Shown: positions 16,019 through 31,128 of the stretch, one piece after another
Layout of the letters: every line of letters begins with the position of its first letter
How positions within the stretch are numbered: position 1 is the first letter of the stretch
Origin: Embleya scabrispora DSM 41855
GTDB lineage: Bacteria > Actinomycetota > Actinomycetes > Streptomycetales > Streptomycetaceae
Direction: 5' to 3'
Assembly: GCF_000372745.1 (NCBI RefSeq)
Contig: NZ_KB889690.1
Location: forward strand, 1 to 43,464
DNA: 43,464 nucleotides
Position numbers and translations under genes: made by a program
Notes under the pieces: model-generated
Told to the model about the DNA's origin: nothing
The model's database searches: none
What the model saw: the letters and a program-made list of their open reading frames with translations, nothing else

Positions 16019-17233
16019 TTGACCGTCATCGACGAGCCCCGGATACCGGGCGCGCCGACGTCCGCCCCGGGCCCAGGTGCCCCCGACGAGGACTCGTCGG
16101 GGGCCCTGTCGTTCGCGGAGCGCGGCTTTCGGCTGCTGTGGCCGCCGTTGGCGGTGTACGCGGGTACCGCCCTGGTCCAGTTGCTGGTGCTCTCGTGGAT
16201 GATCCCGCCGGGTGGGCCGAGTCTGCGGGACCGGCTGCTGCAGTGGGACGCGCACTGGTACGTGGACGTCGCCGCGCACGGCTATCCGGACAGCTTCACC
16301 TACACCCCCGAGGGTGACCTCACCGGCAATACGCTGGCGTTCTTCCCGCTGTATCCGGGCCTGGTCCGGATCGTGCACTACCTCACCGGCGCCGACTACG
16401 AGACGGCCGGCCTGATCGCCGGACACCTGGCCACCGCCGTCGCGCTGTGTGTGCTGTACGTGTTCATGAAGCGTCTGTACGACCGCCGCGCGGCGCTGGT
16501 GATGACCGTGCTCGTGGGCGGCGCGCAGCCGATGGGCGTGGTCTTCTCGATGGCCTACAGCGAGACGCTGTTCCTGGCGCTGGCGGTGGGCACGTTGCTC
16601 GCCGCGCACCGGCGGGCCTGGTTGACCGCGGGCCTGCTCGCGTGTTTGACCAGCGTCACCCGGCCGGCCGGCATCGCCGCGATCGCCGCGCTGGGAGTGG
16701 CCGCGCTGCTGGAGATGTGGCAGCACCGGCGGCTCGTGTACCGCCCGATCGCGGCGTGTGTGATCGCGTGCCTGGGTATGCCGCTGTATCTGCTGTGGGT
16801 GGGCGCCCGGCTCGGCGAGATCGACGCCTGGTTCACCATCCAGGACGCCGGCTGGGGTACCAAGTGGGACAACGGCGAGGCGGTCCGGCACTTCCTGACC
16901 GACACGCTGCGCAACGGCGACCAGTGGATAGCGGTCAGCACGGCGGTGTTGATCATCGCGGCGGTGATCGGCTCGCTGGTCGCGCTGAACCGACGGATCT
17001 GGCCGCCGCTGGCGGTGTACGGCCTGTCGATCCTGGTGATGACGCTGTGCCAGAGCAACTATTACCACTCGAAGCTGCGGCTGATGATCCCCACGCTGCT
17101 GTTCTTCGTCCCCCTGGCGACGGTCCTGGCGCGGGTGCGCACGCGTACGGCGGTGCTCGTGCTGAGCGGGATGTGCCTGTTCGGCATGTGGTACGGCGCG
17201 TACATGTTGACCACCTGGCACTACGGGATCTGA
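16019..17233 (+). CDS. PIG-V/GT-C-like integral membrane mannosyltransferase family protein
   Basis: The 404-residue membrane protein has about nine to ten hydrophobic helices. Its first extracellular loop carries WDAHWYVDVAAHGYP, which matches the WDxxWYxxIAxxGY pattern of the PIG-V/GPI mannosyltransferase-2-like family; the Asp there is thought to bind the polyprenyl-phosphate sugar donor. LAFFPLYPGLVR and SMAYSETLFLALAVGTLLA follow as in that family. In actinomycetes such proteins probably glycosylate surface lipids or proteins, but no substrate is known. TTG at 16019 has AAGGAG 5 bases upstream. It stands alone and ends in a strong hairpin. Confidence 0.82.
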   Translation: MTVIDEPRIPGAPTSAPGPGAPDEDSSGALSFAERGFRLLWPPLAVYAGTALVQLLVLSWMIPPGGPSLRDRLLQWDAHWYVDVAAHGYPDSFTYTPEGDLTGNTLAFFPLYPGLVRIVHYLTGADYETAGLIAGHLATAVALCVLYVFMKRLYDRRAALVMTVLVGGAQPMGVVFSMAYSETLFLALAVGTLLAAHRRAWLTAGLLACLTSVTRPAGIAAIAALGVAALLEMWQHRRLVYRPIAACVIACLGMPLYLLWVGARLGEIDAWFTIQDAGWGTKWDNGEAVRHFLTDTLRNGDQWIAVSTAVLIIAAVIGSLVALNRRIWPPLAVYGLSILVMTLCQSNYYHSKLRLMIPTLLFFVPLATVLARVRTRTAVLVLSGMCLFGMWYGAYMLTTWHYGI

Positions 17234-17241
17234 CGTTCGCC

Positions 17242-17287
17242 GTCCTCGAACGCCGGTCGGCCGAAATTCGGACCGGCGTTCGAGGAC
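17242..17287. terminator. Bidirectional terminator, 17-bp perfect stem
   Basis: 17242-17258 pairs perfectly with 17271-17287 around a 12-base loop, between the converging PIG-V-like and FAD monooxygenase genes. Confidence 0.85.
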
Positions 17288-17308
17288 GAGGCGGCGTCGG
17301 CCGCCGGG

Positions 17309-19018
17309 TCAGTGGCCCGCTCCGCGGGCGCGGTCGATGGCCTCCTCGAGGATGTCCAGGTGCTCGGGGGGCAGGTGCGCCGCTATGTAGCCGTCCGGGC
17401 GGATCAGCAGGATCGTGTGCGCGCCGGTGCCCGGGTACTCGGGGGTGACCACCAACTCGGCGGGCGCGGCGAGCTTGTCCAAGCGTGCGCGCAGCCGTGG
17501 CATCAGGCCCGCCTCCCGCCAGCGGTCGCCGTGCCACACCTCTATGCCGGGGGCGATCAGCAGCACCACCAACCCCCGGTCCAGGCACTCGGTCAGCCAC
17601 CCGTCGGCGCCGTCCGCACGGACCACCGGGACGTCCCGGATCCACTCGCCGACCCCGGGGCCGGGGGTTAGCAGCGGCGAGCCGTTGTAGTCGGGGCCCG
17701 AGGTGCTCGCGGCCGGTCCGCGCGGGTCGAGCCGGCGCAGTGTGGTGCCCTTGCCGCGCGCGCCCATCAGGGTCAGCCGGCGGCCCACCTTCTGCGCCGG
17801 GCTCACCGGCGCCAGGAAGTGCAACGCGTCCTCGCCCAGCGCCAATCGGCGCCGGGCGGCCCCCCGGCGCTCGCCGTGGTAGGTCTCCAGGAGCCGGATC
17901 GGGGCGTAGCCGCGCAGGGTGAAGGCCAGTTTCCAGGCCAGGTTGCGAACGTCCTGGAGACCGAGCTCGACCGAGTCCGCGGCGGACGGGTGGACCAGGT
18001 GCGCGGCATCCCCGGCGAGCAGCACCCGGCCGACCCGGAAGCGGCGGGCGAGTCGCTGATGCACCTCGTACTCGCCGCTCCACAACAAATCGTGCGCGGG
18101 ATCCCCGGCGGCGTCCGAGTCGGGGGAGAGCGCGTCCAGGGTGCGCAGCACCGAACGCACCCGGGCGGAGACCCGCTTGGGGTCGGCCAGGTCGCCGGTC
18201 ACCGGGATCACCCGGGTCTCCTCGGCGGCCTTGGCCACTCCGTGCGCCATCGGGAGCTGCCAGGTCAGTCGCCACACGTCGTCCGGCAGCGGCTGGGCGA
18301 GCACGGTGCCGCCCTTGTGGAACGGCGGGTCCACGAACAGCCACGGGGTGGCCGGCCCGCCGGTGTCGGGGGTCGGGGGCTCGTCGGCGAGCGAGGGATC
18401 CGGCGGCACCAGCGACGTCGCGGTGAGCCGGCGCGGCAGCCGTACCTTCACGTCCGCGCACAACAGCCGGTCCACCCGCGGCCGGCCGGGAAAGCGCACG
18501 CCCACCGCGCGCCGGACCACCGAGCGGGCTCCGTCGCAGCCGAGCAGCCACTGCGCGCGCCATTTGACCGGGCCCCCGGGGCCGCGGGCGAGCAACGTGA
18601 CCGAGGTCTCGTCCTGTTCGACCCCCTCGATCCGGTGCCGCCACGCGGTGGTCACCAGCGGGCTGGCGTGTGCGGCGTCCAACAGGGCGCGTTCCAGGCG
18701 CTGTTGGGAGAGCCCATAGCGGACCGGGGCCTCGGGCTCGTCGACCGGCTGCGGTACGTCGCGGGTGCGCCGGCGGATCCGCTGCACGCCCCACGGCTCG
18801 GCGGCGCCGTCCAGGCGGGTGCCGGTCAGGTCGTAGACGAAGGCCAGCGTCGCGCCGTCCAGCGCACACGCGCGCGAGCCGGCCCGCGGCGTGCCGTTGC
18901 CCGAGTCCACCACGACCGAGCGCACCCCGCGCCCGGCCAGGGCCAGGGCGGCGGCCAGGCCGGCGGGCCCGGCGCCCGCGATGATCACCGAGTCCGCGCG
19001 CGGAGCATTGCCCGCCAT
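17309..19018 (-). CDS. FAD-dependent aromatic-hydroxylase-like monooxygenase
   Basis: The 569-residue protein has a class A flavoprotein monooxygenase layout: the dinucleotide loop IIAGAGPAGLAAALALAGRG near the N-terminus, the DG motif WLLGCDGARSVVRRAVG, and the GD motif GRVLLAGDAAHLVHP. A C-terminal thioredoxin-like domain ends in ILLIRPDGYIAAHL, as in phenol hydroxylase-type enzymes. The FAD-phosphate segment after the GD motif, usually GGQGMNTGIQD, reads SAADSVELGLQD, an unusual variant. Substrate is unknown. ATG at 19018 follows a GGGGGG ribosome site; an upstream in-frame extension to 19087 overlaps the glu terminator region. It is read separately from gluD, whose terminator precedes it. 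Confidence 0.88.
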   Translation of the reverse strand: MAGNAPRADSVIIAGAGPAGLAAALALAGRGVRSVVVDSGNGTPRAGSRACALDGATLAFVYDLTGTRLDGAAEPWGVQRIRRRTRDVPQPVDEPEAPVRYGLSQQRLERALLDAAHASPLVTTAWRHRIEGVEQDETSVTLLARGPGGPVKWRAQWLLGCDGARSVVRRAVGVRFPGRPRVDRLLCADVKVRLPRRLTATSLVPPDPSLADEPPTPDTGGPATPWLFVDPPFHKGGTVLAQPLPDDVWRLTWQLPMAHGVAKAAEETRVIPVTGDLADPKRVSARVRSVLRTLDALSPDSDAAGDPAHDLLWSGEYEVHQRLARRFRVGRVLLAGDAAHLVHPSAADSVELGLQDVRNLAWKLAFTLRGYAPIRLLETYHGERRGAARRRLALGEDALHFLAPVSPAQKVGRRLTLMGARGKGTTLRRLDPRGPAASTSGPDYNGSPLLTPGPGVGEWIRDVPVVRADGADGWLTECLDRGLVVLLIAPGIEVWHGDRWREAGLMPRLRARLDKLAAPAELVVTPEYPGTGAHTILLIRPDGYIAAHLPPEHLDILEEAIDRARGAGH

Positions 19019-19094
19019 CGTGGCCCCCCAAGTGTTGCAAGACGTGTCGTACTCGTCGCCCATCATCCGGCACCGGGACCCCGCCACGACAAAG

Positions 19095-19130
19095 CGACGC
19101 CCCGCGGGTGGTGTTCACCGCGGGGCGTCG
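19095..19130 (-). terminator. Terminator of the gluABCD operon
   Basis: CGACGCCCCGCGG pairs perfectly with CCGCGGGGCGTCG around a 10-base loop; on the minus strand CTTTGTCG follows. It lies 38 bp past the gluD stop. Confidence 0.8.
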
Positions 19131-19168
19131 GTCGTCGGTGGTGCGGGTGGGGCGCCGGGCCGGCGGGG

Positions 19169-20053
19169 TCAGACGCCGGCGCCGTCCAGGGACAGCGCCG
19201 CCGGCCGCGGCGGCTGGACGGCGATCGGCTTGCCCTTGCGCGAGGTGCGCAGCCTGCGCTCCAGCCAGGTGGCGAACGCCGACAGGATCATGCACATCGC
19301 GACGTAGATCGTGCCGACGATGATCGTGACCGGGATGAACGGCATGTGGTAGTCCTGGTAGCCACCGATCAGCTTGGCCGCCGCGAGCAACTCCGGGTAG
19401 GTGATCAGGAAGCCGAGCGAGGTGTCCTTGAGGGTCACCACAACCTGGCTGATGATCGTCGGGAGCATGGTGCGGATGCCCTGCGGGACCAGGATCATCG
19501 TCATCACCTGGGTCTTGCGCATGCCCAGCGCGTAGGCCGCCTCGCTCTGCCCCTTCGGCACGGCGAGGATGCCCGCGCGGATGTTCTCCGCCTGCACGGT
19601 GCCGTTGTAGATGGTCAGGCCGACCACCAGCGGCCACATCGGATCCCACTTCCACCAGCCCTGGCTGCCCGGGACGAGGTAGAGCATGAAGATCAGCACC
19701 AGCAGCGGCATCGCGCGGAAGAAGGTCACGAACGTGGTCGAGGCCCAGCGCACGATCTTGTGATCGGAGAGCCGGCCGGCGGCCAGGAAGGCGCCGAGCA
19801 CGATCGAGAACACCGCGGCGAGCGCGAACGCCTTCAAGGTGGCCTTGAGGCCGTCGAAGATGAACTGCTGGACCCCCGTGTACTGGAACGGGTCCCACTT
19901 GGCCGACTCGAACTGGCCGGTGTCCTCGAACCGCATGATCACGAAGACCAGGAAGGCGGCCAGGGCCAGGGTGCCGACCACGCCGATGATCAGGTTGCGC
20001 CGACGTGCCTTCGGGCCCGGCACGTCGAACAGCACGCTCGCTTCGCGGCTCAT
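19169..20053 (-). CDS. gluD: Glutamate ABC transporter, permease subunit GluD
   Basis: This is one of two membrane subunits of the high-affinity glutamate importer. The 294-residue protein has an N-terminal cytoplasmic stretch, a first helix (LIIGVVGTLALAAFLVFVIM) and then the HisMQ-type permease core with TFFRAMPLLVLIFMLYL. The EAA loop is SEAAYALGMRKTQVMTMILV PQ, which contacts the ATPase. ATG at 20053 overlaps the gluC stop in an ATGA, so translation is coupled. It is the last gene of the operon and is followed by a perfect hairpin. Confidence 0.95.
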   Translation of the reverse strand: MSREASVLFDVPGPKARRRNLIIGVVGTLALAAFLVFVIMRFEDTGQFESAKWDPFQYTGVQQFIFDGLKATLKAFALAAVFSIVLGAFLAAGRLSDHKIVRWASTTFVTFFRAMPLLVLIFMLYLVPGSQGWWKWDPMWPLVVGLTIYNGTVQAENIRAGILAVPKGQSEAAYALGMRKTQVMTMILVPQGIRTMLPTIISQVVVTLKDTSLGFLITYPELLAAAKLIGGYQDYHMPFIPVTIIVGTIYVAMCMILSAFATWLERRLRTSRKGKPIAVQPPRPAALSLDGAGV

Positions 20054-20697
20054 CGGACCACCGCCAGCTTCTTCTCCAGCGCGGCGAGAAGCGCGCTCAT
20101 GGTCAGGGTGATGATCAGGTAGCCGATCGCGATCCACACCAGGACCCACAGGGATTTGTAGCCGTTCTCGATCATCGTCGAGCTGGTGCCCATGAGTTCG
20201 GTGGTGTTGAAGGCGCTGGCGATGGCCGAGTTGCGGACCATCGCGATCAGCAGGCTGCCGATCGGCGGGACCGCCGCCCGACCGGCCTGTGGCAGCACGA
20301 TCTGGCTCAGTGTCTGGGTGAAGGACATGCCCAGGCTGCGGGCGGCCTCGGCCTGGCCGATCGGGACGGTGTTGATGCCCGAGCGGATCGCCTCGCAGAT
20401 GAAGGCGGCGGTGTACGTGCTCAGCGCGATGACCGCGAACTGGAAGAAGGAGAAGTTGAACCGCAGCTTGGGGAAACCGAGCGCGACGGCGAAGAAGATC
20501 AGCGTCAGGGGGGTGTTGCGGAAGAGATTGACGTACGCGGCGCCGAACCAGCGCAGGGGCGGCACCGGCGAGACCCGACACGCGGCTATCAGCGTGCCGA
20601 GCAGAAGCGACGCGATCCCACAGACGACGGTCAGCTTGAGCGTCCCGACGAAGCCGTCCTGCAAGAGATCCCAGTTGTCCTGGATCACTTCGAGCAT
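20050..20697 (-). CDS. gluC: Glutamate ABC transporter, permease subunit GluC
   Basis: This second membrane subunit has 215 residues and five predicted helices. It has the HisMQ family pattern: FVGTLKLTVVCGIASLLLGT, YVNLFRNTPLTLIFFAVALG, and the EAA loop AEAARSLGMSFTQTLSQIVL PQA. It pairs with GluD and docks to GluA. ATG at 20697 follows a GGAGGGC-type ribosome site. A 31-base hairpin lies in the 161-bp gap before gluB, suggesting that the permease genes are read at lower level than gluB. Confidence 0.95.
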   Translation of the reverse strand: MLEVIQDNWDLLQDGFVGTLKLTVVCGIASLLLGTLIAACRVSPVPPLRWFGAAYVNLFRNTPLTLIFFAVALGFPKLRFNFSFFQFAVIALSTYTAAFICEAIRSGINTVPIGQAEAARSLGMSFTQTLSQIVLPQAGRAAVPPIGSLLIAMVRNSAIASAFNTTELMGTSSTMIENGYKSLWVLVWIAIGYLIITLTMSALLAALEKKLAVVR

Positions 20698-20794
20698 CGT
20701 GATCGAGCCCTCCTCTCCGTGATCGTGGGTTCAGGGGTGGGTTGACGAACCGTTCCCCTGCTCACGTGCGGCGGGGACGGGAGGGGCCGCGCGC

Positions 20795-20825
20795 CGGCCG
20801 GTCCCGGGGGAGCCGGGACCGGCCG
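20795..20825 (-). terminator. Intercistronic hairpin between gluB and gluC
   Basis: CGGCCGGTCCCGG and CCGGGACCGGCCG are perfect 13-bp arms with a 5-base loop. It has no T-run, so it may partly terminate transcription or protect the gluB mRNA 3' end from decay. Confidence 0.65.
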
Positions 20826-20858
20826 ACGCGCGACGTGCGACGGGTGCGACGTGGCGCG

Positions 20859-21809
20859 TCAGTAGCGGACGAGCGCCGGGATGGCCGGGGCGGCCGAGCC
20901 GGACAGGCCGAGCGTGGCGTCGTACGCCTTCTTCCAGTCGCCGTTCTTCTCGTGCGCCTCGAGGGCGTCGCTGACCGCGTTGCGGAACACCGCGTCGTCC
21001 TTGTTCAGGCCGACGCCGTAGTTCTCCACGGTGAACGGCTCGCCGACCACCTTGAGCGCGCCCGGGTCCTTGGCCGCGTAACCCTTGAGGATCGCGTCGT
21101 CGGTGGAGACCGCGTCGACCTGGTTGGAGAGCAGGTTCTCGACACACAGCGAGTAGGTGTCGAACACCCGGGTGGTGGTGTCGGGGAACTTGGACTGCAG
21201 GTTCTGCAGCGGGGTGGAGCCCTTGGCGGAGCACACCGTCTTGCCCTTGATGGTGTCCTTGCCGGTGATCGCGCTCTCGTTCTTGCGCACCAGCAGGGAC
21301 TGGCCGGCGATGTAGTACGGACCCGCGAAGGACACCTGCTCCTTGCGCTTGTCGGTGATGCTGTAGGTGCCGACGTAGTAGTCGATGTCACCGTTGACCA
21401 GCGCGTTCTCCCGGTTGGTCGACGCGATGGCCTTGAACTCGATCTTGTCCGGGCCGAAGCCGAGGTCGGCCGCGATCATCTTGGCGACCTCGATGTCGAA
21501 GCCGGAGTACTTGCCGGTGGCCGGGTCCTTGGAGCCGAGGAAGGGCTGGTCCTCCTTGGCGCCGACGATCAGCTTGCCGCGCCGCTTGGCGTTGTCGAAG
21601 GTCTTCGAGCCGGTGAGCGCGGCGTCCGCCTTGGGCGTGTAGCTCGGCAGCTCGGGCTTGCCGGCACCGGGCGCGCCGGGCGCGCCCTGCGAACCACCGG
21701 TGGTACCGCCCGGCGTCTTGGCCTCCGGCGAACCGTCCTTGCCGCACGCGGTACCGAACAGGGCGAGCACGGCGATGCCGGCGACGGCCACGGATGAGCG
21801 CATCTTCAT
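20859..21809 (-). CDS. gluB: Glutamate-binding lipoprotein GluB
   Basis: This is the extracellular substrate-binding protein of the glutamate importer, 316 residues. The lipoprotein signal ends with LFGTAC (Cys22), followed by a flexible Gly/Pro/Ala linker. The type II binding fold begins at GKLIVGAKEDQPFLG; GFDIEVAKMIAADLG, QVSFAGPYYIAGQSLLVRK and VSTDDAILKGYAAKDPG are typical of glutamate-specific members, with a Cys pair (VCSAKG and LCVENL) likely disulfide-bonded as in GluB/GlnH. ATG at 21809 has AAGGA 8 bases upstream, preferred over TTG at 21815. The extracellular half of the kinase at 25076-26992 is a clear paralogue. Confidence 0.96.
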   Translation of the reverse strand: MKMRSSVAVAGIAVLALFGTACGKDGSPEAKTPGGTTGGSQGAPGAPGAGKPELPSYTPKADAALTGSKTFDNAKRRGKLIVGAKEDQPFLGSKDPATGKYSGFDIEVAKMIAADLGFGPDKIEFKAIASTNRENALVNGDIDYYVGTYSITDKRKEQVSFAGPYYIAGQSLLVRKNESAITGKDTIKGKTVCSAKGSTPLQNLQSKFPDTTTRVFDTYSLCVENLLSNQVDAVSTDDAILKGYAAKDPGALKVVGEPFTVENYGVGLNKDDAVFRNAVSDALEAHEKNGDWKKAYDATLGLSGSAAPAIPALVRY

Positions 21810-21883
21810 GATCAACGTCCTTGAGTGAAAGGGAGAGCGGCCTGACGACAGACGAACTGCAGGGTGCGAAGCGTGAGTTGCGC

Positions 21884-21910
21884 CATCGGGCGCACTGGGG
21901 GCGCCCGATG
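21884..21910 (-). terminator. Intercistronic hairpin between gluA and gluB
   Basis: CATCGGGCGC pairs perfectly with GCGCCCGATG around a 7-base loop, starting 5 bases after the gluA stop. With the gluB-gluC hairpin it suggests stepwise control of subunit amounts. Confidence 0.5.
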
Positions 21911-21914
21911 CGGC

Positions 21915-22730
21915 TCAGTGGTGCAGGATCTTGGAGAGGAAGTCCCGAGCACGGTCGCTGCGCGGGTTGCTGAAGAATTCGTCGGGCGTGTTCTCCTCGA
22001 CGATGCGGCCGTCGGCCATGAAGATCACCCGGTTCGCGGCGGAGCGCGCGAAGCCCATCTCGTGGGTCACCACGACCATCGTCATGCCCTCGCGGGCCAG
22101 GTCGCGCATGACCTCCAGGACCTCGTTGATCATCTCCGGGTCGAGCGCGGAGGTGGGCTCGTCGAAGAGCATCACCTTGGGCTCCATGGCCAGTGCCCGG
22201 GCGATCGCGACGCGTTGCTGCTGGCCACCGGAGAGTTGGGCCGGGTACTTGTCCGCCTGGCTGCCCACGCCGACCCGGTCCAGCAGTTCGTGCGCCCGGC
22301 GGGTGACCACGTCGGCCTTCTCGCGACGGACCTTGAGCGGGCCCAGCGTCACGTTCTGGAGCACGGTCTTGTGCGCGAACAGGTTGAACGACTGGAACAC
22401 CATGCCGACGTCCGAGCGCAGGCGGGCGAGTTCACGACCCTCCTGCGGGAGGAGGTTCCCATCGATGGTGATGCGGCCGCCGTCGATCGCCTCCAACCGG
22501 TTGATCGTGCGGCACAGCGTCGACTTTCCCGATCCGGAGGGACCGATGACGACGACGACCTCGCCCCTGTGGATCGTCAGGTCGATGTCCTGCAACACGT
22601 GCAGGGCGCCGAAGTGCTTGTTGACGTTCTCCAACACGACGAGGGGCTCGCCGGAGTGCGCGTCCTTGCCGATGTCGCGCTTGGTGAGCACCGGCGGCTT
22701 CGGTGCGGTGTCAGAGGCATCCGTCGTCAC
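21915..22730 (-). CDS. gluA: Glutamate ABC transporter, ATP-binding subunit GluA
   Basis: This cytoplasmic ATPase powers glutamate import. The 271-residue protein has all ABC motifs: Walker [10 protein letters not shown] (63-71), the Q-loop in [13 protein letters not shown], signature LSGGQQQR, Walker [13 protein letters not shown] and switch His in VVTHEMGFA. An N-terminal 30-residue extension precedes [20 protein letters not shown]. The start is GTG at 22730 with GGAG 10 bases upstream. It is the first gene of gluABCD and divergent from gluR; the shared 187-bp gap holds the candidate GluR site. Confidence 0.96.
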
Positions 22731-22860
22731 GATGGCGGGCTCCGTCCAGAGTCGTCCCGTATCTTTTTGCGCGACCGGGTGGCAGGTGGGTTCGAGAGTC
22801 TCCCGGCGTGGCCGGGTGGTGCGTGACACTAGGGCAGGCAGCACCCCCCCAGTCAGTGCA

Positions 22861-22884
22861 CTTGAGCTTGTCTTGAGGTCAAGA
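22861..22884. promoter_or_regulatory. Candidate GluR operator in the gluA-gluR gap
   Basis: CTTGAG at 22861 and again at 22872 are direct repeats exactly 11 bp apart, the spacing expected for an OmpR-type dimer. The second is also part of a perfect 6-2-6 palindrome, TCTTGAGGTCAAGA (22871-22884). The site is 34 bp before gluR and about 130 bp before gluA, just upstream of a possible gluA -10 (TAGTGT near 22830). Confidence 0.5.
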
Positions 22885-22917
22885 GTCGGTAACGGACCGT
22901 CAGATGTGAGGAACCAC

Positions 22918-23595
22918 GTGCGCCTCCTGCTCGTCGAGGATGATCTGCGAGTCGCCGCACCGCTACGCGCGGTGCTGGGCCGGCACGGCTTCACCGTGCG
23001 GCACGCCACCACCGGCGAGGAGGCCCTCGCCGCGCTCGACGACGTGCCCGACGTGGTGCTGCTCGACCTGTCGCTGCCCGACCACGACGGCTTCGAGGTG
23101 TGCAGTCGGATTCGGCGGTTGTGCGACGTCCCGGTGATCATGGTCACCGCGCGCGCGGACATCCGATCGCGCATACACGGGCTGAACCTGGGTGCCGACG
23201 ACTACGTCACCAAGCCCTACGACATCGGCGAACTGCTGGCCCGCATACACGCGGTGAGCAGACGCACGCGCAGTGACGCGCCGCTCGCGGAGAGTGCGCC
23301 GGCCGCCAAGGGGCCCGGTGGCATCGTGCTGGACCCGGCGACCCGGCGGGTGAGCGTCGGCGGTGTCGACGTGGTGCTCACCCGCAAGGAATTCGATCTG
23401 CTCGCCCTGCTGGCGCAGCGCCCGGGCGTGGTGTTTCGGCGCGAACAGATCATCAGCGAGGTCTGGCACACCAGCTGGGCGGGCAACAACCGCACCCTGG
23501 AGGTGCATGTCGCGTCGCTGCGCTCCAAGCTCGGCAATCCGGCGATCGTCGAGACGGTACGCGGCGTGGGCTACCGTGTCGTTCCCGAGGCCTGA
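22918..23595 (+). CDS. gluR: OmpR-family response regulator GluR
   Basis: This is the response regulator of the glutamate-sensing pair that, in S. coelicolor as I recall, controls gluABCD. The 225-residue protein has a receiver domain with acidic pocket VEDD (7-9) and phospho-acceptor D50 ([13 protein letters not shown]), the conserved Thr in IMVTARAD and Lys in YVTKPYD. A winged-helix DNA-binding domain follows ([55 protein letters not shown]). GTG at 22918 has GAGG 8 bases upstream. gluK follows after 36 bp. The assignment to GluR rests on the family match and on adjacency to gluA. Confidence 0.92.
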
Positions 23596-23631
23596 TCCCA
23601 CCGGCTTCCCGACGGATCGTCACCGGTTCCT

Positions 23632-25047
23632 GTGCGTACCCGCCTGCTCGCCTTGCTTCTCGCCCTGATGACCGCGGTGCTGATCGCGCTCGGCATCCCG
23701 TTGGCGATCTCCCGCGCGTCCGCCCACCAGCAGGAGCTGATCCGGGACCGCGTGGACGATCTCACCCGCTTCGTTTCGGACACCCAGTTGACCGTGGTCT
23801 CGGACACCCTGCGCGCGCAGACCGACGGCGGGCAGCCACCCGGCCCCGACGCCGCCGACCTGGACATGTTGCGCTCGGAACTGGAGCGCTACGAGGCCGT
23901 CTACGGCATCCGGGTCGGCGCCTTCGATCGGCGCGGCCAGGCGATCGCCGTGTCCCACCCGGGATTTCGGGTCGATCCGCGCTCGCCGGCGTTCACCGAG
24001 GCGCTCGCCGGGCGGCGCAGCGACGACCCCGGGCAGGTGTGGCCCTGGCAGCGCGACCGCATCGTGGTGGCGGTCCCGGTGATCCACCGCGGCGACGTGG
24101 TCGCGGTCGTGCTGACCGACTCGCCGACCGGCCGGATGCGTTCGAAGATCCAACAGGTGTGGCTGATTCTGGTCGCCGGCGAAGTGGTCGCGGTGCTCGC
24201 CGCGCTGCTGCTCGCGACCCGGCTCACCGGCTGGGTGCTGCGTCCGGTCCGGGTGCTCGACTCGGTGACCCACGAGATCGCCACCGGCCGGCTCGGCGCA
24301 CGGGTGGCCGGCGCCCAGGGGCCGCCGGAACTGCGGCGACTGGCAAGGTCGTTCAACGAGATGGCGGATCACGTGGAGACCGTCGTGGACCAGCAGCGGG
24401 CGTTCGCCGCAGACGCCTCGCACCAACTGCGCAACCCGCTGTCCGCGCTGCTGCTGCGGATCGAGGAGCTGGGCCTGTCGCTGCCGCCGGGCCACGGCGA
24501 GACGCTGGAGGGGGTGCGCGAGGAGGGCCGGCGGCTCACCCATGTCCTGGACGAACTCCTCGAGTTGGCGCTGGCCGAGAATGCCCGCCCGTCCGCGCGG
24601 GCCGTGGACGTGGCGGCCCTGGTGCACGAACGAGTGGACGCGTGGCAGACGTTGGCCCGCAGCCGCGGTCGCCGGTTCGAGCAGGAGGGCCCGCTCGCGC
24701 TGACCGGCAACGTGGATCCGGTCACCCTGGGCAGCGCGCTCGACGCGATCCTGGACAACGCGCTCAAGTTCGCCCCCGAGGACACCACGATCACCGTGGC
24801 GTGCTCGGCGGTGGGCAGCGAGGTGGAGATCCGGGTCAGCGACCGCGGCCCGGGGCTGACCTTCGAGGAGATGCGACGCGTGGGCGACCGGTTCTGGCGC
24901 AGCCCGCGGCATCAGAACGTGGACGGCTCGGGCCTGGGCCTGTCGATCGCCCGCACCCTGCTCGCCGCGAGCGGCGGCACGATCGACTTCGCCGCGCGCG
25001 AGGGCGGCGGGCTGACCGTCACACTGACCGTGCCCAGGGCCGACTGA
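23632..25047 (+). CDS. gluK: Sensor histidine kinase GluK
   Basis: This is the partner kinase of GluR and is thought to sense extracellular glutamate. The 471-residue protein has membrane helix 1 (LLALLLALMTAVLIALGIPL, 5-24), an extracellular sensor of about 145 residues and helix 2 (VWLILVAGEVVAVLAALLLA, 176-195). A HAMP linker follows (LRPVRVLDSVTHEIATGRLG), then the H-box DASHQLRNPLSALLLR with H264, the N-box LDAILDNALKFAP, and G-boxes DRGPGL and GSGLGLSIA. All catalytic motifs are intact. GTG at 23632 is the start. It converges with the kinase/binding-protein fusion gene 28 bp away, with no clear hairpin between them. Confidence 0.92.
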   Translation: MRTRLLALLLALMTAVLIALGIPLAISRASAHQQELIRDRVDDLTRFVSDTQLTVVSDTLRAQTDGGQPPGPDAADLDMLRSELERYEAVYGIRVGAFDRRGQAIAVSHPGFRVDPRSPAFTEALAGRRSDDPGQVWPWQRDRIVVAVPVIHRGDVVAVVLTDSPTGRMRSKIQQVWLILVAGEVVAVLAALLLATRLTGWVLRPVRVLDSVTHEIATGRLGARVAGAQGPPELRRLARSFNEMADHVETVVDQQRAFAADASHQLRNPLSALLLRIEELGLSLPPGHGETLEGVREEGRRLTHVLDELLELALAENARPSARAVDVAALVHERVDAWQTLARSRGRRFEQEGPLALTGNVDPVTLGSALDAILDNALKFAPEDTTITVACSAVGSEVEIRVSDRGPGLTFEEMRRVGDRFWRSPRHQNVDGSGLGLSIARTLLAASGGTIDFAAREGGGLTVTLTVPRAD

Positions 25048-25075
25048 ACCGGCCGGATCGAAACGGCGGTCGTCG

Positions 25076-26992
25076 CTATTCGGCCACCCGGCACTGCGGC
25101 GCGCGCGGCTGGGGCAGGCCCAGCGGGCGCAGCCGCACGTCGTAGGCGCGCTGCCAATCACCGTTGGCGATGTGCCGGTTCAGTGCCCCGCACACCGCGT
25201 CCGCGAGGGCGACATCGCCCTTGCTCAGGCCCACGCCGTACGGCTCGTCCGAGAACGGCCGGCCCAGGATCCGCAGCGTGCCCGGATACTGGGCGACGAA
25301 GCCGGACAGGATCGCGTCGTCGGTGCTGACCCCGCGCACCTTCTTGGCCAACAACTCGTCCACGCACTCGGAGTACTTGCCGCGTTCCTGGACCTTCATG
25401 GTCGGGAACTCGGTGCGGATGCGGGTCGCCGACGTCGACTCGCGCACCACGCACACCGCGCTGTCGGCGAGGTCCTCGGGACCGTTGACGTCCGGCTCGT
25501 CCGAGCGGACCAGGAAGTCCTGGCCGGCGATGAAGTACGGCCCGGCGAAGGAGACCTTCTGCGACCGGGCGGCGTTGATCGTGTAGCTGGCCACGACCAG
25601 GTCGACCTGACCGCTGGTGATCCGGTACTCGCGGTTCTGCGTCTCCACGTCCATGAAGGTGATCCGGTCCTTGAACCCGAGATCGTCCGCGATCATCCGC
25701 GCGACATCGTCGTCGAAGCCCTGATACGCCTGATCGCCGGTGCGCACGCTCCACCCGGGTTGGTCCGGTTTGACCCCGATGATGATCCGGCCCCGGGCCA
25801 CCATCTCCCGGTAGGTCGGCGAGTTCTTGCGCAGGTTGGCGAGCGGGTCGGGGGCGTGCGTGCCGCCCTCGGCCCGGTTGTTCTCCACCGCGAGCCAGGA
25901 CGCGCCCACCGCGACCAACAGGAACGCCAACGCGGCGGGCAGCGCGATCCGGGTGCGCCGCCACCACCGGGCGCGGGCCGCGGGCCGCGATATCGGCTCC
26001 TGCGGCGGGCCTTCGCCCGCGTAGGTGGCCTCGACGTCCTCGTCCGGCTCGTCGCGCTCGCGCCGGGGCAGCGGGTCGCCGCCCCAGGTCACCGGCACCG
26101 AGTCCTGCACCACTCGGGTGAGCAGCGCGTCGGTCTCCTTGGCGTCCAGCCGCCGGAGCGGATCCTTGCGCAACAGGCCCATGATCACCGGCTCCAGCGG
26201 ACCCGCGTGCCGCGGCGGCGCGGGCGGCGCGTTCACCACCGCGTCCACGACCTCCACGGGGGAGGAGCGACGAAACGGCGCGAGACCCTCGACCATCTCG
26301 TACAGCGTCGCGCCCAGCGACCACAGGTCCGAGGCCGGATCCAACGCGCCCGGCACGTCGGCGAGCGTGTGCTCGCTCGATCCGTTGTCGGTGAGCACGC
26401 CGGCCCGACCGCGGGAGAACTGTTCCGCGCGCTCGGGAGCGAGATAGCCCGGGGTGCCGAGCAGTTCGCCGAACTGGGTCACCTGGGGCGCATCGGCGAA
26501 GGTGGCGATGCCGAAGTCGGTGAGCACCACCCGGCCGTCCGTGCCCAGGAGCACGTTCGCCGGCTTCACGTCACGGTGCAGCACGCCCTTGGCATGCGCG
26601 GCGCGCAGCGCCCGCAGCACGTCCAGGCCGATCCGGGCCGCCTCGGCGTGGTCGAGTCGACCCTCCGCGCGGATCACGTCGGCCAGCGAGCGCGAGATCA
26701 CCAATTCCATGACGATCCACGGCAAACCGTCCTCTTCGAAGACGTCGTGCACCGTCACCACGTTCTCGTGGCGGATGCGGGCCGCGGCGATCGCCTCGCG
26801 CTTGCTGCGCTCCAGCCAGGACCGCTGCGAGCCCGCGTCCAGGGACTTGGGGAGCAGCAACTCCTTGACCGCGACCTCGCGGCCGAGGGCGGTGTCCACG
26901 GCCAGCCAGACCTCGCCCATACCGCCTCGGCCGAGACTGCGGCTGAGGCGGTAACGATTGTTCAGTATTCGGCCGATCTCCCCCTCGGACAC
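25076..26992 (-). CDS. Transmembrane Ser/Thr kinase fused to an extracellular glutamate-binding domain
   Basis: This 638-residue one-piece receptor kinase has three parts. Residues 13-295 form a Hanks kinase with all motifs: GRGGMGEV (21-28), catalytic K43, HRD (139-141) in HRDVKPANVLL, DFG (159-161) and APE (185-187). An insert of about 30 residues after APE (188-217) lengthens the activation segment. A charged linker follows, then one membrane helix at 349-368 (IALPAALAFLLVAVGASWLA). Residues 400-620 form a complete type II binding domain parallel to GluB: GRIIIGVKPDQPG, KVSFAGPYFIAGQDFLVR, VSTDDAILSGF, YGVGLSKGD and NGDWQRAYD. Positive-inside topology puts the kinase in the cytoplasm and the binding domain outside. 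GTG at 26992 follows GGAGG. I recall an automated family name for this fusion in Streptomyces, but no characterised member. Confidence 0.93.
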   Translation of the reverse strand: MSEGEIGRILNNRYRLSRSLGRGGMGEVWLAVDTALGREVAVKELLLPKSLDAGSQRSWLERSKREAIAAARIRHENVVTVHDVFEEDGLPWIVMELVISRSLADVIRAEGRLDHAEAARIGLDVLRALRAAHAKGVLHRDVKPANVLLGTDGRVVLTDFGIATFADAPQVTQFGELLGTPGYLAPERAEQFSRGRAGVLTDNGSSEHTLADVPGALDPASDLWSLGATLYEMVEGLAPFRRSSPVEVVDAVVNAPPAPPRHAGPLEPVIMGLLRKDPLRRLDAKETDALLTRVVQDSVPVTWGGDPLPRRERDEPDEDVEATYAGEGPPQEPISRPAARARWWRRTRIALPAALAFLLVAVGASWLAVENNRAEGGTHAPDPLANLRKNSPTYREMVARGRIIIGVKPDQPGWSVRTGDQAYQGFDDDVARMIADDLGFKDRITFMDVETQNREYRITSGQVDLVVASYTINAARSQKVSFAGPYFIAGQDFLVRSDEPDVNGPEDLADSAVCVVRESTSATRIRTEFPTMKVQERGKYSECVDELLAKKVRGVSTDDAILSGFVAQYPGTLRILGRPFSDEPYGVGLSKGDVALADAVCGALNRHIANGDWQRAYDVRLRPLGLPQPRAPQCRVAE

Positions 26993-27203
26993 CGCGGTCG
27001 CACCCTCCTCCCGAGCAAGCGGGCCTCCCTGACCAAGTGTGCGGCCTTCCCCCCGGTCGGCTCACAGCGTCGGTTCGGGGACCGCGCACGGTCTGGCCCA
27101 CAAGCTCAGAGCGTAGATGTCGGTCCCGAACACCATGACACGAACCCAGCATGTGCCATCGGAGCCGCTTCGCGCGACGCCCTGGGCATCACGATCTGTC
27201 CGA

Positions 27204-28205
27204 TCAGGGTTTCACCGATCGGTACCACCGCTGAGCGCCGGTGTGCAGTGGCAGCGGATCGGTGAAGATCGCCGTCCTGGGATCGACCAACTGGGCCGCG
27301 TGCACCTCGCGTCCGATCGCCTCCCGGTTCTCCATCACCGTCTCGGTCACCCGCCTGATCAACACCGGATCCTGCGAGGCCCGGGTGACCAGCAGATTCG
27401 GCACCGCGATGGTGGGCGTCTCGGTACCGCCGGGATAGGCGTCCGCGGGCACCACCGCCTCGCGGTACACCGGCCCGTAGCGATCGCGCAGTTTGCCCGC
27501 GAGGTCGCCGAGTTGGACCAGACGCACCGACCAGTGCTCGGCCAGGTCGGAGACCGCCCCGGTGGGCAACCCGCCGGACCAGAAGAACGCGTCCACGGTG
27601 CCGTCGCGCAGTCGCTGGGTGGCCTCCCCGATGCCGATCCGCACGGGGGTGATGGCCCGATCCATGTCGCCCATGCCCACCTCGCTCAGCAGCCGGCGGG
27701 TGATCAACTCCACGCCCGATCCGGGCAGCCCCACCACCACCCGGCGCCCGCGCAGGTCGGCGATCTTCTGCACCGGGGAACCGACCGGCACGACCAGTTG
27801 CACGTAGTCGTCGTACAACCGGGCGACCGCCCGCAGTCGCTCGCGATCGCCCGGCCCCAGATCGGCCACCGCGTCGGCGGTGGCGATGCCGAAGGTGTCG
27901 ACGCCCTCGATCACCCGGCGCAGGTTCTCCACCGACCCACCGCTGGAGTTCACCGTGACCTTGACGTCCAGGTCCGCGGACAGCCGCGGCCGCAACAGTT
28001 CGCCGTAGCGGTGGTACACCCCGGTCGGCACCCCGGTGGCCAACGAGACCGGCCCACCCGGGGTCGGCCGGTCGTCCCGGGAGAACACCACGTACCCGCC
28101 GACCAGGCACAACAGCACGAGCGTGACCAGTCCGGCCCTGACCAGGCGGGGTCGACGCGCACAGGCGTCGCGCAGGGAAACGGGGAGGAACGACAAGGAG
28201 GGCAC
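27204..28205 (-). CDS. TAXI-family TRAP-type solute-binding protein, membrane-anchored
   Basis: The 333-residue protein has an N-terminal membrane helix at about 20-40 ([20 protein letters not shown]) and an extracellular TAXI-type binding domain: [35 protein letters not shown], the [12 protein letters not shown] stretch, [19 protein letters not shown] and [17 protein letters not shown] proteins bind small acids such as glutamate or 2-oxoglutarate for TRAP transporters. No TRAP membrane subunits are present, and the anchor is not a lipoprotein signal, so a sensory role is possible. The start is uncertain: GTG at 28205 puts the helix near the N-terminus, and GTG at 28235 or TTG at 28247 are alternatives. 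It lies 211 bp upstream of the kinase fusion; 26993-27203 probably holds that gene's promoter and no other gene. Confidence 0.82.
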
Positions 28206-28273
28206 GGCGGCGATATTGCCATGGAGGTCGGCCACGCGCCCCGGCAAGCAAACCCCGTACCCTGTCGGGTGTT

Positions 28274-29752
28274 ATGACTGCGCGAAGCTATGAGGTCCGC
28301 ACCTACGGGTGCCAGATGAACGTCCACGACTCCGAGCGACTGTCCGGTCTGCTGGAGGACGCGGGATACGTCCGCGCGCCCAAGGGGGAGTCGGCCGACG
28401 TGGTCGTCTTCAACACGTGCGCCGTCCGCGAGAACGCGGACAACAAGCTGTACGGGAACCTGGGCCACCTGGCGCCCGCGAAGGCCGAACGCCCCGGCAT
28501 GCAGATCGCGGTCGGCGGCTGCCTCGCGCAAAAGGACCGGGACACCATCGTGCGCAAGGCGCCGTGGGTGGACGTGGTCTTCGGCACCCACAACGTGGGC
28601 TCGCTGCCGGTGCTCCTGGAGCGGGCCCGGATCGAGCAGGAGGCCCAGGTCGAGATCCTGGAGTCGCTCGACGTCTTCCCCTCCACGCTGCCCACCCGGC
28701 GCGAGTCGGCGTACGCGGCGTGGGTGGCCATCTCGGTGGGCTGCAACAACACCTGCACGTTCTGCATCGTGCCCGCGCTGCGCGGCAAGGAGAAGGACCG
28801 CCGACCCGGCGACGTGCTCGCCGAGATCGAGACCCTGGTCGGCGAGGGCGTGATCGAGGTCACCCTGCTCGGCCAGAACGTGAACGCGTACGGCTCGGAC
28901 ATGGGCGATCGCGAAGCCTTCTCCAAGCTGCTCCGCTCGTGCGGACGCGTCGAGGGCCTGGAGCGGGTGCGCTTCACCTCGCCGCACCCGCGCGACTTCA
29001 CCGACGACGTGATCGCGGCGATGGCCGAGACGCCGAACGTGATGCACCAGTTGCACATGCCGCTGCAGTCCGGCTCGGACACGATGTTGCGCGCGATGCG
29101 CCGCTCCTACCGGCAGGACAGATACCTCGGGATCATCGAGCGGGTGCGGGCGGCGATGCCGGACGCGGCGATCTCCACCGACATCATCGTGGGCTTCCCC
29201 GGGGAGACCGACGAGGACTTCGAACAGACCCTGCACACGGTGCGCGAGGCCCGGTTCGCCGCCGCGTTCACGTTCCAGTACTCCAAGCGCCCGGGCACCC
29301 CGGCGGCCACGATGGACGGCCAGGTGCCCAAGGAGGTCGTGACCGAGCGCTACCAGCGGCTGCTCGCGCTCCAGGAGGAGATCTCCTGGGCGGAGAACCG
29401 CACCCGGGTCGGCCGCACCCTGGAGGTGCTGGTCGCCGAGGGCGAGGGGCGCAAGGACCACGACACCGCGCGGTTGTCCGGGCGAGCCCCGGACAACCGC
29501 CTCGTGCACTTCGAACGCCCCGCCGAGGGCGTGCGGCCCGGCGACGTGGTCTCGGTCGAGATCACCTACGCCGCACCGCACCACCTGCTCGCGGAGAAGC
29601 CGACCCTGGCGATCCGGCGCACCCGCGCGGGCGACGCGTGGGAGCGCCGCAACGCGGCCCCCGCGGCCAAGCCGGGCGTGCTGCTCGGCATGCCGCGGAT
29701 CGGCGCGCCGGCGACCCCGGCCGCGTCGACCGGGGTCGAGTGCTGCGACTGA
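28274..29752 (+). CDS. miaB: tRNA-2-methylthio-N6-isopentenyladenosine synthase
   Basis: This radical SAM methylthiotransferase converts i6A37 to ms2i6A37 in tRNAs reading UNN codons, using the product of MiaA (encoded at 31975). The 492-residue protein has the N-terminal UPF0004 domain with three cluster Cys (TYGCQMN, NTCAVRE, GGCLAQ), the radical SAM CxxxCxxC in [10 protein letters not shown], and a C-terminal TRAM domain around [15 protein letters not shown] to [10 protein letters not shown]. An additional C-terminal tail ends in ECCD. ATG at 28274 begins the conserved sequence and is divergent from the TAXI gene, with only about 70 bp for both promoters. Confidence 0.97.
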
Positions 29753-29759
29753 GCACCGC

Positions 29760-30347
29760 TCAGGTCACGTTCCAGCCGAGCATGACCGGCTGTTCGCGCT
29801 CGTAGCCGAGGGTGGACAGCCGGGCGGTCTCCAGCCGGAACAGCCGGCCGTCCTCGGGCGGCAGGCCCAGCCAGCGGGCGGTCAACACCCGGAGCAGGTG
29901 GCCGTGGGCGACGAGCACCGCGTCCTCGCCGCGCTCCAGCACCGGCCGTACCCGATCGAGCACCCGGTCCACCCGGCGGCCCACATCGGCGATCGACTCG
30001 CCGGGATGCGCGGCGTCGCCCGGGATCACCCCGTCCCGCCACAGGAACCAGCCCGGGACGCTCTCGCGGATCTCGCTCGTGGTGATGCCCTCGTAGCCGC
30101 CGTAGTCCCACTCGACCAGATCCGGTTCGAGCCGTCCGCCGGTGATCCCGGCCAGCTCCGCGGTGTGTCGGGCCCTGGTCAGCGGGCTGATCAGGGCGAG
30201 CCCGAACTCGTGCCCGGCCAGCAGGTCGGCCACCGCCTTGGCCTGGGCCTTCCCCTCGGGGGTCAGCGGGATGTCGGTCAGCCCCGTGTGCCGCCCGGAC
30301 CTGCTCCATTCGGTCTCGCCGTGTCGCACCAACATCAGTTCTCGCAT
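29760..30347 (-). CDS. Histidine phosphatase (phosphoglycerate mutase-like)
   Basis: The 195-residue soluble enzyme belongs to the branch 1 histidine phosphatase superfamily. The phospho-acceptor motif LVRHGETEWS is at the N-terminus, the second catalytic segment is SPLTRARHTAEL, the acid is within EWDYGGYEG, and the second His is in LVAHGHLLRVL. Length and spacing fit broad-specificity or GpmB-like phosphatases; the substrate cannot be told from sequence. ATG at 30347 was chosen because GGATGG lies 5 bases upstream; ATG at 30356 adds three residues. It converges with miaB, ending 7 bases past the miaB stop, and is divergent from the next gene. Confidence 0.9.
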   Translation of the reverse strand: MRELMLVRHGETEWSRSGRHTGLTDIPLTPEGKAQAKAVADLLAGHEFGLALISPLTRARHTAELAGITGGRLEPDLVEWDYGGYEGITTSEIRESVPGWFLWRDGVIPGDAAHPGESIADVGRRVDRVLDRVRPVLERGEDAVLVAHGHLLRVLTARWLGLPPEDGRLFRLETARLSTLGYEREQPVMLGWNVT

Positions 30348-30408
30348 GTGATCCATCCCATCACGCGACCCGGGAGGCGTCGCGGCGGCCACTTAGTACT
30401 CTCCCTGA

Positions 30409-31128
30409 ATGCTCGTAGCCGCCGCGGTAGTCCCGTGCCCCCCGATGATCGTGCCCGAGCTGGCCCGCGGGGCCGTAGCGGAGTTGGACGCGCTGCGCGC
30501 GGCGTGTGATCGGGCGCTGGCCGGGCTGGCCGAGACGGCCCCGGACCGGTTGGTCGTGCTGGGCGCGGGCGATGCGGACGCGACGCTGGAGGCCGGGGGG
30601 ACCGGCTCGTTCGCGCCGTACGGACTCGACCTGGAGGTCGTCCTCGGGGCCGGCGCCGCGCAGCCGCTCTCGCCCGCGTTGACCGTCGGCGCCTGGCTGC
30701 TCGGCCGCTCGCCGTGGGCCGCCGAGCGGATCGCCGCGGGGACCGCGCCGAGCCCGGTGACCGCAGCGGTGATCGCCTCGGACGCCGACCCCGCGCGTTG
30801 TGCCGCCCGGGGCGCCGAACTGGTCGCCGGCCCCGATCGGGTCGCGCTCGTGGTGGTCGGGGACGGATCCGCGTGCCGGACCGAGAAGGCCCCCGGCTAC
30901 CTCGACGCGCGCGCCGAGCCCTACGACCGCGCACTGGGCGCGGCGCTCGCGGACGCCGACTCGGACGCGCTCGCGGCGCTGGAGCCCGCGCTCGCGGAGG
31001 AACTGTGGGTGGCCGGCCGGCCCGCCCTCCAGGTGCTGGCCGGCGCGGCGGGCCCCGGTCGACGCGGCCGGCTGCTCTACGCCGAGGCGCCCTACGGCGT
31101 CGGCTACTTCGTGGCGCTCTGGTCCTGA
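30409..31128 (+). CDS. Class III extradiol dioxygenase subunit B-like (LigB/MEMO-fold) protein
   Basis: The 239-residue protein fits a compact LigB-like fold: VAAAVVPCPPMIVPELARG at the N-terminus, DRLVVLGAGDA, VALVVVGDGSACRTEKAPGY with the D-G-S loop, and the YDRALGAALADADSDALAAL helix. In active extradiol dioxygenases the iron is held by two His and a Glu; here the N-terminal HxP-type site reads CPP and I see no His in the protein at the second site either, so iron-dependent dioxygenase chemistry is doubtful. I recall this family as conserved between miaB and miaA in Streptomyces, function unknown. ATG at 30409; the ribosome site is weak (CTCCCTGA). Confidence 0.7.
   Translation: MLVAAAVVPCPPMIVPELARGAVAELDALRAACDRALAGLAETAPDRLVVLGAGDADATLEAGGTGSFAPYGLDLEVVLGAGAAQPLSPALTVGAWLLGRSPWAAERIAAGTAPSPVTAAVIASDADPARCAARGAELVAGPDRVALVVVGDGSACRTEKAPGYLDARAEPYDRALGAALADADSDALAALEPALAEELWVAGRPALQVLAGAAGPGRRGRLLYAEAPYGVGYFVALWS

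Follow-up and report, generated by a model that had tools for sequence, protein, structure and literature searches.

A putative single-pass receptor Ser/Thr kinase with a glutamate/aspartate-type sensor domain in the glu locus of Embleya scabrispora and other Streptomycetaceae

We analysed a 43,464-nt stretch of the genome of the soil bacterium Embleya scabrispora DSM 41855 (contig NZ_KB889690.1; the whole stretch is called the window) in which one gene encodes a Ser/Thr kinase, a membrane helix and a solute-binding domain in a single chain of 638 amino acids (Table 1). We read this fusion protein, with a probability of about 0.6, as a single-pass receptor Ser/Thr kinase for extracellular glutamate or aspartate. 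The reading draws on computed features of the protein: its domain make-up and one membrane segment, its catalytic and main ligand residues, the selection acting on it, the clade formed by each half and the recurrent slot of the gene beside gluK-gluR and gluABCD.

GGAGGAGGG lies 10 nt ahead of the GTG start of the gene, and GC content by codon position in the open reading frame (0.72/0.48/0.93) fits a genuine coding sequence. Pfam detected Pkinase at residues 14-286 (145.7 bits) and SBP_bac_3 at residues 403-618 (79.3 bits against a gathering cut-off of 26.4), placing the C-terminal half among the family 3 amino-acid solute-binding proteins (SBPs). With one membrane helix between these domains, the polypeptide has the general single-chain SBP-kinase architecture, as the original prediction of a one-piece receptor kinase had held without naming the strand, which is the minus strand. 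The kinase landmarks GRGGMGEV (21), AVKE (41), HRDVKP (139), DFG (159), APE (185) and DLWSLG (222) were all present, and a PDB sequence search with the kinase domain returned PknA and PknB as best matches. A full-chain structure model, computed from too few sequences and with an unusable kinase C-lobe, placed a helix at residues 352-373 within a low-confidence stretch; Foldseek with this model listed GlnH first and PknA at rank 12.

Conservation was assessed in an alignment of 30 fusions, comprising the window's sequence and 29 from other genomes of the same family (Streptomycetaceae). The kinase residues K43, E66, H139-R140-D141, K143, N146, D159-F-G, P186-E187 and D222 were invariant in all 30, in agreement with the prediction that the kinase motifs are intact, as were the activation-loop threonines T172 and T180. 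Hydropathy showed a single strongly hydrophobic segment in every fusion, located between kinase and sensor, with an excess of positive charge on its kinase side in 29 and a tie in one (L035). The sensor half (residues 391-632) aligned with the GluB encoded in the window with 106 identities over 246 columns and a score of 508, compared to 34.9 +/- 6.0 (maximum 72) for 200 shuffles, and the six motifs tested from the list that the original prediction gave as shared with GluB were found in both proteins. The ratio of nonsynonymous to synonymous substitution rates (dN/dS) for kinase, linker plus helix, and sensor was 0.156, 0.208 and 0.159 against Embleya hyalina, 0.111, 0.258 and 0.112 against genome G031 (L018), 0.222, 0.923 and 0.329 against Yinghuangia soli, and 0.234, 0.685 and 0.369 against genome G001 (L019). 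By sensor identity E. hyalina (91%) and Y. soli (72%) are the nearest named relatives. Across five comparisons dN/dS of the connector (residues 291-390) spanned 0.21-0.92. Both halves are under purifying selection, the sensor being held slightly less than the kinase at larger distance, and the connector is free to change. Because the sensor-GluB score is far above the shuffles and dN/dS is low in both halves, the fusion is neither a product of chance nor decaying.

The fusions also carry cysteines of their own. Cys 514 and Cys 543 are common to fusions (24/24) and free binding proteins (110/110), whereas C601 is found in 24/24 distinct fusion rows and in none of the 110 distinct free binding proteins. 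All 24 distinct fusions have a further cysteine C-terminal to C601, and C634 is present in 30/30 full-length fusions; only 9 of the 110 free binding proteins have a cysteine anywhere in the corresponding C-terminal part. These fusion-only cysteines suggest that the sensor has an additional disulphide and lies outside, in oxidising surroundings.

By sequence, the solved structure nearest to the sensor is GlnH of Mycobacterium tuberculosis, the protein that also tops the Foldseek list. The GlnH contacts R147, R169 and D250 are identical in the sensor and two others are conservatively changed (T162 to S, S164 to T); GlnH W232 is replaced by Tyr, as it is in the window's GluB, and the water-mediated K161 by Ala. 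The sensor domain therefore has the glutamate/aspartate contact pattern as defined by the residues of GlnH. R454, R476, Y540 and D558 were invariant in the 30 fusions, and the ligand-coordinating residues, whose loss the original prediction had treated as a possible refutation, are kept throughout in their main GlnH contacts. Glutamate- and aspartate-bound proteins lead the fold matches. From these residues and matches, the ligand is probably glutamate or aspartate. For Corynebacterium glutamicum GlnH, affinity depends on which of two pocket positions holds Ser and which Thr, and the arrangement also present here as S469 and T471 gave a KD (dissociation constant) of 264 uM for Asp and 1.26 mM for Glu (PMC9769921; this and the other papers are cited for the passages covered); the fusion sensor would accordingly be expected to bind less tightly than GluB.

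The position of the gene was compared in 42 stretches, 22 with a fusion and 20 from glu loci of the family. In 16 of the 25 fusion loci examined the fusion occupies the slot between a gene for a TAXI-type binding protein and gluK(-gluR-gluABCD), with several kb of other DNA separating it from gluK in L144 and L183. gluABCD is complete in 15 of these 16, the L144 stretch ending before it. The other 9 fusions, all from genus g9, lie elsewhere in the genome (class-2 fusions). The fusion is absent from 17 related glu loci, three of which (L188-L190) come from genomes with a g9-type fusion elsewhere. Pseudonocardia acidicola (L068) has miaB, the TAXI gene, gluK, gluR and gluABCD without the kinase, which makes a kinase-free glu locus the likely ancestral state. 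In Streptomyces coelicolor glutamate is bound by GluK, and the GluK-GluR pair controls the gluABCD operon next to it (review PMC9739842). A family search at E 1e-90 matched the fusion in at least 31 of 297 genomes and 7 of 17 genera, the window's own included; this is a lower bound, as G008 and G010 have an at-locus fusion scoring below the cut-off. A class search at 1e-85, a cut-off that would not reveal StpK7-like fusions (see below), matched 5 of 296 genomes, again including the window's own and all in the same family.

The original prediction had interpreted the outside half as a duplicated uptake protein captured as a sensor. A binding-domain tree was built from 70 rows that we chose: 14 at-locus fusions, 9 other fusions, 8 of 12 StpK7 rows and 39 free binding proteins. 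All 23 Streptomycetaceae fusion sensors, from several genera, formed one clade (100/99) with the GluB rows apart; the window's fusion fell inside this fusion-only clade and its GluB with the other GluBs. A recent copy of the neighbouring GluB is thus rejected, while fusions and Streptomycetaceae GluBs as one group gave p 0.103 in the approximately unbiased (AU) test, so an old GluB duplication within the family stays compatible. Compared to GluB, a separate uptake protein of GluABCD, the fusion sensor has the same pocket residues except for S/T swaps and differs in being membrane-tethered and in its conserved C601. The class-2 fusions nest among the at-locus fusions, and the at-locus fusions alone as one clade gave an AU p of 0.16; a move of the class-2 fusions out of the glu locus is likely on this tree. 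Long branches are present in both this tree and the kinase tree described below. In the window's own genome (11.39 Mb, 190 contigs) the sensor search also matched long frames on contigs C90 and C31. The C90 frame was rejected as a further fusion since it looks like a stand-alone binding protein that follows an ATP-binding cassette (ABC) ATPase (L156), and the C31 frame was labelled free by the kinase-motif test.

The general architecture is already known. 'SBP kinases' are in print (mBio 2018), and the same architecture is published for StpK7, MSMEG_1200 of Mycobacterium smegmatis (a remark in PMC6069109), which is reported to phosphorylate MSMEG_1198 and to affect susceptibility to phage TM4 (reviews PMC13355554, PMC13314858). 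The statement in the original prediction that no member had been characterised was therefore too strong, though StpK7 is an independent fusion. StpK7 (NCBIfam NF052427) likewise joins a Ser/Thr kinase, a membrane helix and a family 3 solute-binding domain in one chain, but from another kinase branch and another binding-protein branch. NF052427 aligned to residues 13-614 of the window's fusion with 168.6 bits, against a curated cut-off of 900, so the protein is not an StpK7 equivalog; above the cut-off the model matched 13 of 394 class genomes, all of one genus. StpK7 sensors lay at a great distance from the fusions, paired (100/100) with a free binding protein that the window's genome encodes, and a single clade of fusion and StpK7 sensors was rejected (AU p 4.3e-6). 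In a kinase tree of 48 domains (18 at-locus, 7 of 13 class-2, 5 of 12 StpK7 and 18 other kinases of the window's genome) the fusion kinases formed one clade (97/94), and joining the StpK7 kinases to it was rejected (p 0.0032). A shared origin with StpK7 is thus rejected for both halves. In all 8 StpK7 rows the positions of R454 and Y540 are occupied by Ile and Gln while R476 and D558 are kept, a less certain assignment in an alignment of 22-27% identity, so that StpK7 appears to lack the arginine for the side-chain carboxylate that the window's fusion keeps. From the tree tests and these residues, the architecture was built at least twice and probably for different ligands, the window's fusion being a second, independently assembled one-piece receptor kinase, probably with another ligand than StpK7. 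For StpK7 no ligand is reported in the review and paper passages covered. The literature covered, which is thin for subscription journals, holds no record of the Streptomycetaceae fusion family beyond the remark in PMC6069109; the Streptomyces cases in the earlier paper may belong to this family, because the StpK7 family was limited to one genus in our searches. What the present analysis adds is that the family arose independently, that its pocket is kept and that the gene recurs at one slot in a glutamate locus.

The contrast that the original prediction drew with the separate proteins of PknG-GlnX-GlnH is supported, and the same genome appears to hold both. In PknG-GlnX-GlnH a Glu/Asp-binding Venus-flytrap domain also controls a Ser/Thr kinase, but through three separate proteins with a cytosolic, TPR-containing kinase; the window's fusion, with kinase and sensor on one chain, is not a member of that system. 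PknG was recognised by its TPR domain elsewhere in the genome (G000:C136:262500-270500, L174), in a row with a GlnH-like binding protein (lipobox judged by eye), whose side-chain positions are R and W, and a 538-amino-acid frame with hydrophobic segments, a candidate GlnX-like protein from its position and appearance. PknB/PknA-type receptor kinases share with the fusion a Hanks-type RD kinase inside, one helix and a sensor outside. The fusion differs in having SBP_bac_3 as its outside half and no PASTA domains, and it scored 236.9 bits with NF033483, below the cut-off of 450 for PASTA-type PknB.

Ligand identity, the direction of activation, dimerisation and the targets of the kinase we infer as follows. 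The C-terminal Venus-flytrap domain, outside the membrane, would close on L-glutamate or L-aspartate, and this closure, or a dimer arrangement favoured by it, would be relayed through the single helix to the PknA/PknB-like RD kinase. The inside kinase would then autophosphorylate its activation loop (T172/T180 region) and phosphorylate proteins of the cytoplasm through which the use of glutamate or nitrogen is tuned. One chain would thereby do the job of the three-protein PknG-GlnX-GlnH, alongside GluK-GluR and GluABCD. Ser/Thr phosphorylation of GlnR tracks nitrogen supply (PMC9739842), and GlnR and GluR are candidate targets by inference only. Should the fusion be a Glu/Asp receptor, two Ser/Thr kinases and one histidine kinase would report external Glu/Asp to the cell. 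The fusion family joins kinase directly to binding domain with no GlnX relay; solved structures allow a guess at the ligand, and this guess lends itself to a test on the purified domain. StpK7, in which the trait was built a second time and probably for a different ligand, lends itself to comparison, as do sister genomes that have the locus without a kinase in it.

Some results weigh against glutamate or aspartate as the ligand. A cysteine-binding protein nearly equals the Glu/Asp-bound proteins in fold-match score, arginine- and glutamine-binding proteins also score close behind or level, and the sensor has Tyr in place of the GlnH Trp that tells Asp from Asn, all of which would suit a receptor kinase for another small ligand such as Gln, Asn, Cys or a different amino acid. 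We consider this unlikely, as the arginine contacting the ligand side-chain carboxylate is kept in 30/30 fusions, the gene sits in the glutamate locus in 16/25 cases and the window's GluB has the same R and Y at these pocket positions. The conserved linkage to gluABCD, gluRK and the TAXI gene could instead point to a transport-coupled sensor, whose binding domain docks on GluCD, the TAXI protein or GluK and reports occupancy of the transporter or histidine kinase rather than free ligand; PMC6069109 discusses receptors that are read by way of binding proteins. However, the binding domain retains its own ligand site, also in the class-2 fusions away from the glu locus, and such docking seems to us rather doubtful.

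Two further explanations were already disfavoured. The outside half as a fossil, a tether without ligand function, would fit a sensor evolving somewhat faster than the kinase (0.329 vs 0.222 for Yinghuangia, 0.369 vs 0.234 for G001), but the halves are equal against the two Embleya-like genomes and the main ligand residues are invariant across the fusions, which leaves it very improbable. An StpK7 orthologue with a role in phage susceptibility shares the domain order and the alignment of NF052427 over 13-614, and is hardly credible given the score far below cut-off, the joint clade rejected for both halves and the Ile/Gln residues of the low-identity alignment. The BREX-like (bacteriophage exclusion) island location of StpK7 is also absent: the nearest neighbours are the TAXI binding protein, miaB, gluKR and gluABCD, and no BREX gene was recognisable by Pfam among the 12 neighbours in the part scanned (16019-31128), one of which had no Pfam hit. 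Returning to the Glu/Asp receptor kinase, a wider and speculative proposal, which we hold only tentatively, is that one-piece solute-receptor Ser/Thr kinases were built at least twice in actinomycetes from different parts, that in Streptomycetaceae the protein acts as a Glu/Asp receptor of lower affinity, signalling into its own glutamate circuit (e.g. by Ser/Thr phosphorylation of GluR or nitrogen regulators), and that three readers of glutamate, namely an orphan TAXI protein, a Ser/Thr receptor kinase and a histidine kinase, may act together at one locus.

Table 1. Features of the fusion gene and its neighbours in the window
Feature	Coordinates	Strand	Remarks
Fusion gene, Ser/Thr kinase - membrane helix - solute-binding domain, 638 amino acids, GTG start	25076..26992	minus	
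Protein kinase domain, residues 14-286	26135..26953	minus	Pfam; nearest solved kinases PknA/PknB
Juxtamembrane linker, residues 287-346, weakly conserved	25955..26134	minus	dN/dS of 291-390
Single membrane helix, residues about 347-371, positive side facing kinase	25880..25954	minus	hydropathy
Extracytoplasmic solute-binding (sensor) domain, residues 391-634	25091..25822	minus	Pfam, alignments
Sites in sensor domain			predicted ligand contacts R454, S469, T471, R476, Y540, D558; cysteines 514, 543, 601, 634
gluD, permease	19169..20047	minus	start approximate
gluC, permease	20050..20697	minus	
gluB, sensor-domain homologue	20859..21815	minus	lipobox judged by eye
gluA, ABC ATPase	21915..22679	minus	5' end approximate; open reading frame extends to 23174
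gluR-like response regulator (receiver + Trans_reg_C)	22915..23592	plus	position beside gluABCD as in the passages covered of PMC9739842
gluK-like sensor histidine kinase	23632..25047	plus	
TAXI/NMT1_3-type solute-binding protein, N-terminal hydrophobic segment	27204..28247	minus	upstream neighbour of fusion
miaB-like radical SAM gene	28274..29752	plus	edge of conserved locus

The TAXI-type gene shares the locus with gluK in 32 of the 33 family glu loci scored. The window's genome gave no match to the TRAP (tripartite ATP-independent periplasmic) permease family DctM nor to the GltS symporter, and the TAXI-type protein may be an orphan glutamate-binding partner of GluK and not part of a transporter. 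In L178, L182 and L192 gluK-gluR and the TAXI gene are kept with no gluABCD adjoining, and L179 is without gluB alone; the GluK-GluR two-component system may persist without a neighbouring transporter in some family members. Two gluB copies were found around gluCD in Yinghuangia soli (L046 14249-17880) and its relative G018 (L146). Four tandem Ser/Thr kinases with other C-terminal parts (G000:C14:8000-22000, L160) rank among the best matches to the fusion kinase in its own genome, and three of them group in the kinase tree. The window also contains a class A RNase P RNA at 580-989 on the minus strand (287.4 bits).
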